Assembly: GCA_021203775.1 (NCBI GenBank)
Contig: JAJQAO010000032.1
Coordinates: 1 to 38,716 of the forward strand
Origin: Phascolarctobacterium sp.
GTDB taxonomy: Bacteria > Bacillota > Negativicutes > Acidaminococcales > Acidaminococcaceae
Length of the DNA stretch: 38,716 nucleotides
Direction of reading: 5' to 3'
This document shows, piece after piece, positions 21,368 to 28,251 of this stretch (its first letter is position 1; each line of letters begins with the position of its first letter). Under the pieces are notes generated by a model. The model saw only the letters and a program-made list of their open reading frames with translations, was not told the origin of the DNA and ran no database searches. The position numbers and the translations under genes were made by a program.

Positions 21368-21397
21368 TTTACAAAAGTTATTTTCAAGTATTATAAT
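21368..21397 (+). promoter_or_regulatory. Predicted sigma70 promoter of orphan ncRNA
   Basis: TTTACA (21368-21373), 18-nt spacer, TATAAT (21392-21397). Confidence 0.65.
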
Positions 21398-21403
21398 CAT
21401 GAC

Positions 21404-21603
21404 ATAAACAACAACGGCGTTGTAAAACACAGAGTTTTATTGCCGTTGTTGTTTTTATCTGCAACATGCAGATGTGCGTGACTATCTGCCGTGAAAAAGA
21501 TAATAGGCAGTCGCCGAAGCGGCCAAATGTGGGGATGTACTGATTAAATAATTAGATACCGGTCACGCAAAGCTTAAATGCCCGTGTAAACGGGTATTTT
21601 TTT
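21404..21603 (+). ncRNA. Candidate stand-alone structured RNA, family not recognised
   Basis: Follows the promoter above; hairpin 21406-21454 (perfect 13 bp plus 6 bp), hairpin 21457-21473 (perfect 7 bp), domain closed by GCGTGAC/GTCACGC (21476-21568), terminator CCCGT-GTAA-ACGGG then T7. No sense-strand coding gene downstream. Confidence 0.6.
21579..21603 (+). terminator. Intrinsic terminator of ncRNA
   Basis: TGCCCGT-GTAA-ACGGGTA followed by TTTTTTTG on the + strand. Confidence 0.75.
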
Positions 21604-21610
21604 GTTTATT

Positions 21611-27934: not shown

Positions 27935-28076
27935 TAAAAAACCCTTCACAGACTAGTGAAGGGTGCTGTACGCTCTCACTTCATCTGCCGGAATTATCTC
28001 CGTTGGAATTGGCACCGTTCACTTTCGTGTGGTTGCCGTAGCGTCATAGGGCCAGTCCCTCAACTACTCTTGATGA
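27935..28076 (-). ncRNA. SAM-I (S-box) riboswitch with downstream terminator, controlling metNIQ
   Basis: Minus-strand TTTCATCAAGAGTAGTTGAGGGACTGGCCCTATGACGCTACGGCAACC...GGTGCCAATTCC...GATGAAG (aptamer ~27978-28076), then ACCCTTCAC-tagtct-GTGAAGGGTTTTTT (27935-27964). Confidence 0.97.
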
Positions 28077-28251
28077 AACTACTGTTAAGTTAGTGAGTTA
28101 ATAATACAATGGTTTCCGGTAATTGTCAATAAAAATATTGCAAAATGTCGAAAAAATAAAAAATAAATAAAAAAATGCTTGCCTTTTGCTAGATAAAGTG
28201 TTAAAGTATAAAAGAATTCGGCGAAATGAAAGCAGAAACGGGAGGAATGTT

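Follow-up and report, generated by a model that had tools for sequence, protein, structure and literature searches.

The region between korC and purC in the window (the whole stretch of 38,716 nt analysed, from a Phascolarctobacterium sp. contig) harbours a real small-RNA gene, the representative of a new sRNA family whose control is a variation on a known principle; it is not a new category. The 5' part of its product is an attenuator shared with leaders of type III glutamine synthetase (GS III) genes, and full-length RNA should therefore arise only when the first of its two terminators is read through. On the reading that we consider probable, the gene would belong to a nitrogen (glutamine) regulon, and its 3' domain would be made only on antitermination, probably mediated by an ANTAR protein. 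Transcription itself, the ANTAR protein as binder, nitrogen as signal and the 3' domain as effector are the parts of this scheme that we infer.

Transcription signals and fold of the locus

The promoter (Table 1) matches the consensus at 11 of 12 positions in a sequence scan of the locus, with a spacer of 18 nt. All nine sRNA loci listed retain the pair TTTACA/TATAAT (TTTATA in congener G001), as do the five GS III promoters that were checked. The plus strand between 21400 and 21605 has a minimum free energy of -77.8 kcal/mol; shuffles average -49.3 (z = -6.09), and none of 200 was as low. Scan and fold bear out the promoter, hairpins, ~93-nt closed domain and final terminator that the initial annotation had placed here, including the GCGTGAC/GTCACGC closing stem and the inner CTGCC/GGCAG stem. 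The flanking genes, purC (PF01259) and korC (PF01558), are both on the minus strand, as had been described. In the relatives read, the position of terminator 2 is occupied by a terminator of different sequence.

Table 1. Features of the small-RNA locus, in window coordinates
Feature	Position	Strand	Remarks
Sigma-70-type promoter TTTACA-N18-TATAAT	21368-21397	+	-35 TTTACA 21368-21373; -10 TATAAT 21392-21397
Intrinsic terminator 1 (CAACAACGGC...GCCGUUGUUG UUUUU)	21406-21456	+	Mutually exclusive with hairpin 21408-21423
Antiterminator-type hairpin ACAAC[AACGGC]GUUGU	21408-21423	+	Hexaloop A1, G4; closing pairs AC/GU
Inner hairpin AAAAC[ACAGA]GUUUU	21424-21438	+	Compatible with both folds; loop varies among relatives
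Spacer hairpin ATCTGCA-ACA-TGCAGAT	21457-21473	+	Sequence not conserved between genera
3' structured domain, ~93 nt	21476-21568	+	Closed by GCGTGAC/GTCACGC (21476-21482/21562-21568)
Stem A of 3' domain	21486-21490/21506-21510	+	A-rich loop
Stem B of 3' domain	21511-21514/21519-21522	+	
Conserved core CCAAAUGUGGGGA of 3' domain	21523-21535	+	
Intrinsic terminator 2 (sRNA end)	21576-21605	+	Terminator-like site 21576-21599, T-rich tail

Terminators are common between genes, and the korC-purC interval might in principle contain no more than hairpins arisen by chance or a bidirectional terminator. This can hardly be entertained in view of the folding energy (z = -6.1), the presence of two terminators, the covariation described below and the conservation at further loci where the adjoining genes differ.

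The failure to recognise a family by eye is matched by the database search. Against Rfam 15 at the gathering threshold, the sole match in the whole window was a SAM riboswitch elsewhere, with none at the locus; at E up to 10, nothing credible covered the locus, the best sub-threshold match scoring 22.6 bits against 60. 6S RNA, already doubted, is rejected on the same search and on the predicted fold, which has no long closing rod with a central bubble. The SAM-I riboswitch (RF00162, 88.3 bits) lies at 27978-28079 on the minus strand and precedes a cluster of three ORFs on that strand (27914 down to 25384).

An attenuator shared with glutamine synthetase III leaders

The first hairpin had been described as a perfect stem of 13 plus 6 bp; it is located where described, with 14 plus 7 pairs around a 2-nt bulge in the predicted fold. 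Since GUUGUUGUUUUU lies directly 3' of the stem, the hairpin at 21406-21456 is an intrinsic terminator in its own right; the 5' arm has an alternative fold, a small hexaloop hairpin. Both properties had been overlooked by the initial annotation. The two competing folds are evident from the sequence. GUUGU is invariant among sRNA members despite being on the loop side of the terminator stem and dispensable for it, and the hexaloop letters vary in step with the 3' arm of terminator 1 when modules are compared.

The same type of hairpin is found in GS III, glmS and dapL leaders. A protein search identified a GS III gene in 41 of 59 genomes of the family, and a module comprising the same promoter, CAAC[RRNGNN]GUUG, an inner hairpin and a competing terminator precedes it in 23 of the 30 upstream regions examined. 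The other seven regions (genera g13 and g16) do not have the module directly ahead of GS III: in g13, modules stand ahead of dapL and glmS, upstream of GS III, and in g16 the GS III leader is of a related type. A degenerate pattern of the module matched 32 of 101 genomes and gave no match in the reversed control. The family matches that were read are GS III leaders, the sRNA, or glmS/dapL leaders; in the single match outside the family (G094) the gap is much shorter. Both GS III and sRNA copies of the module occur in seven genomes. GS III was not found in the window's own genome, an assembly 73% complete, and is present in the congener G001. An Rfam search of the GS III leaders returned nothing relevant.

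The GS III (glnN) leaders thus carry the same 5' module as the sRNA, promoter included, but have a coding gene in place of the 3' domain. The initial proposal of an independent transcript rather than a leader therefore holds for an independent structured RNA; it does not hold for one continuous ~200-nt RNA unrelated to leaders, since the 5' part is the GS III-leader attenuator.

Several further observations concern these leaders. The g13 attenuator modules ahead of the LL-diaminopimelate aminotransferase gene and glmS lie at L150 about 1500-1550, G024:C21:65349-65400 and L159 1501-1543; the G024 module belongs to a cluster that includes glutamine synthetase III, with an ANTAR gene about 6 kb away. 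Four g17 GS III leaders (L122, L123, L124 and L125) have, past the terminator and before the start codon, an additional segment that appears structured: GUGCAACGAAGCACCG...GGUGCUUUC followed by UUUACAGA...UCUGUAAA or a variant. Rfam gave no match to it in the leaders searched. In leaders L120-L129, the motif G[AU]GGGG recurs 40-110 nt before the start codon, with a small hairpin (often UUAC/GUAA) after it; this element resembles the conserved sRNA core and may be only RBS-like.

The candidate antitermination protein

ANTAR-type antitermination proteins control enzymes and, in one system, are sponged by an sRNA. The genome of the window encodes one ANTAR protein (PF03861, G000:C8), with a receiver and an ANTAR domain, whose gene adjoins a HisKA_2 kinase gene and groES/groEL. 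ANTAR, GS III and module are absent together from genera g12 and g15, which could reflect an ANTAR link, with shared ancestry as an alternative. In G032 (g16), an ANTAR gene and GS III-amtB are divergently oriented, and the GS III leader (L136 about 1355-1445) contains two hexaloop hairpins, aagc[AATGGA]gttt and aaaggc[AATGGC]gtcttt, the second of which is overlapped by a terminator. This is a canonical-looking ANTAR leader, to judge from its sequence, and the only one in which two hexaloops were seen; the hairpin of the window corresponds to its second, terminator-overlapping hairpin. No ANTAR gene was found in G008, a fragmented draft, despite a module-like hairpin in its GS III leader.

Known ANTAR targets require two hexaloops with A1 and G4, and EutV target hairpins need A1 and G4 in the loop together with AC/GU closing pairs (PMC3369931). 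The hexaloop of the window (AACGGC, 21413-21418) has A1 and G4, and an intrinsic terminator overlaps its hairpin as in ANTAR leaders. Among 40 module loops, part of them collected with a pattern demanding R1 and G4, G4 is present in all and A1 in 34, the remaining six beginning with G; G4 is also kept in all the GS III leaders located via protein homology. A second A1/G4 hexaloop at a short linker is absent in the window, where the inner loop is ACAGA (5 nt), and the inner loops compared outside the window are unrelated, of 3-7 nt and without A1/G4. Having one hexaloop only, the locus is not filed under the dual-hairpin ANTAR family, although it would work like a member.

The single hexaloop and the variable inner loop would also suit an antitermination switch responding to another protein or signal, with a merely coincidental ANTAR association. 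We regard this as distinctly unlikely: the loop and its closing pairs fit the ANTAR rule, and the g16 ANTAR gene adjoins a GS III gene whose leader has two hexaloops.

Under the ANTAR scheme, transcription would start just before 21408 and, by default, the nascent RNA would fold into terminator 1 and stop at about 21456. An active antiterminator protein, most likely the single ANTAR response regulator of the genome, would hold the hexaloop hairpin 21408-21423, leaving terminator 1 unable to form. The polymerase would then proceed through the 3' domain to terminator 2 and release an sRNA of ~200 nt. Because the first hairpin is the same type of switch as that ahead of GS III (and, in one genus, glmS and dapL), the same nitrogen control is probable; the sRNA would be made alongside nitrogen-assimilation enzymes, with the 3' domain as a trans-acting product.

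The locus resembles the ANTAR-target leaders of the eut genes of E. faecalis (EutV), nasF (NasR) and amiE (AmiR) in its A1/G4 hexaloop, its AC/GU closing pairs, the overlapping terminator and the ANTAR protein encoded in the genome. It differs in having a single conforming hexaloop, at the very 5' end, and a non-coding RNA as downstream unit. Glutamine synthetase leaders are among the matches of a published survey of ANTAR targets (PMC3369936).

The EutX/Rli55 sRNA is likewise a separate non-coding RNA, with a candidate ANTAR site used by mRNA leaders. By this analogy the RNA might act mainly by binding and sequestering the ANTAR protein, in the way that EutX/Rli55 acts on EutV, damping glutamine synthetase expression. 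The same candidate protein site as in the GS III leader is indeed present on a distinct transcript, driven by a strong promoter, and the full-length RNA, if bound, would retain the protein. However, the EutV site of EutX has no associated terminator and is preceded by an AdoCbl aptamer (PMC5821096), whereas here the locus has no aptamer or riboswitch match in Rfam and the site is at the 5' end. Its location inside a terminator and ahead of a conserved domain, which a plain sponge would not need, makes this reading an unlikely one.

A looser parallel is NsiR4, the cyanobacterial nitrogen-stress sRNA. NsiR4 is an RNA produced under nitrogen limitation (PMC9196836), and the likeness is one of analogy only. 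It is not known to have an attenuator of the present kind.

The 3' domain and distribution of the family

Covariation supports the 3' domain: in nine members, 7 of 18 pairs show changes on both sides. The count was made on hand-placed stem arms checked in the sequences, because MAFFT alignments misplace some arms. With these arms, 93% of the pair cells in the nine members are standard, and none of 2000 shuffles was as well paired; the shuffles ignore relatedness, so this result is support and not a probability. Stem B, with one-sided variation only, and core hairpin C, poorly formed in g1, the genus of the window, say little.

The 3' domain could alternatively be a gene for a leader peptide or small protein, with AUGAGGGG... 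as start codon, since AUG, GUG or UUG occurs at that position in all members. Such a product is highly improbable: the lengths would range from 6 to about 70 residues with differing sequences, a consistent ribosome-binding site is lacking and the stems of the domain covary. Moreover, codon positions 1-2 vary while position 3 is kept, and the small-protein reading was rejected on this codon pattern.

The 3' domain showed no more base-pairing with the GS III leader than shuffles did. A GAGGGG motif is shared by sRNA and GS III leader, beyond chance in G033 only. It is conceivable, though doubtful, that the RNA represents a new class of riboregulator in the nitrogen regulon, in which the 3' domain either copies part of the GS III leader regulation (shared UGAGGGG motif) or is an aptamer, one antitermination protein governing both the enzyme and a tuning trans-acting RNA.

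The full sRNA (module, 3' domain and own terminator) occurs in ten genomes including that of the window, from genera g1, g10 and g17, and at loci in at least three gene neighbourhoods; it is thus conserved in relatives, also where neighbouring genes differ. The named matches are Phascolarctobacterium. BLASTN in 100 relatives identified true homologues in G001, G010, G017, G022, G027 and G038, and many weak matches (such as L012 and L015-L020) were judged to be chance. G033 came from a hairpin pattern; its copy is at a different locus, beside a metal-type ABC transporter gene, and has CUUGCGCU/AGGGCGCAAG in place of the outer stem. G042 came from a core pattern. Three g17 sequences served to build a covariance model of the 3' core, which recovered the other members and one new locus, after purC in G046, where promoter, 5' module and second terminator were shown independently.

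This model scored the window weakly (1.6e-5), below a false positive in the rimO coding sequence of the same genome, and given that similar score it is not decisive for the window alone. Membership of the window rests instead on its 84% identity to G001 along the full gene, on BLASTN similarity to G017 (E 7e-15) and on the position beside purC and a DUF362 gene that it has in common with its relatives. In some g17 genomes (L069, L081 and L084, compared with L079), the window-type purC beside DUF362 has been replaced and the sRNA remains; the replacing purC is distant (about 27% identical) and in the opposite orientation.

In 301 genomes of the class, the covariance model gave no match beyond the family. 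Scanning 84,980 species with the core pattern yielded five Phascolarctobacterium contigs, one Devosia and one Deltaproteobacteria match; the last two have no 5' module, their number is about that expected by chance, and they were rejected.

The locus is thus a gene for a small RNA, belonging to gut bacteria that are relatives of Phascolarctobacterium. The occurrence of a one-hexaloop module here and a two-hexaloop leader in g16 makes the ANTAR recognition rule directly testable. If the proposed scheme is true, an attenuator-gated sRNA that has its switch in common with glutamine synthetase would give nitrogen control a non-coding arm in a widespread group of gut bacteria.
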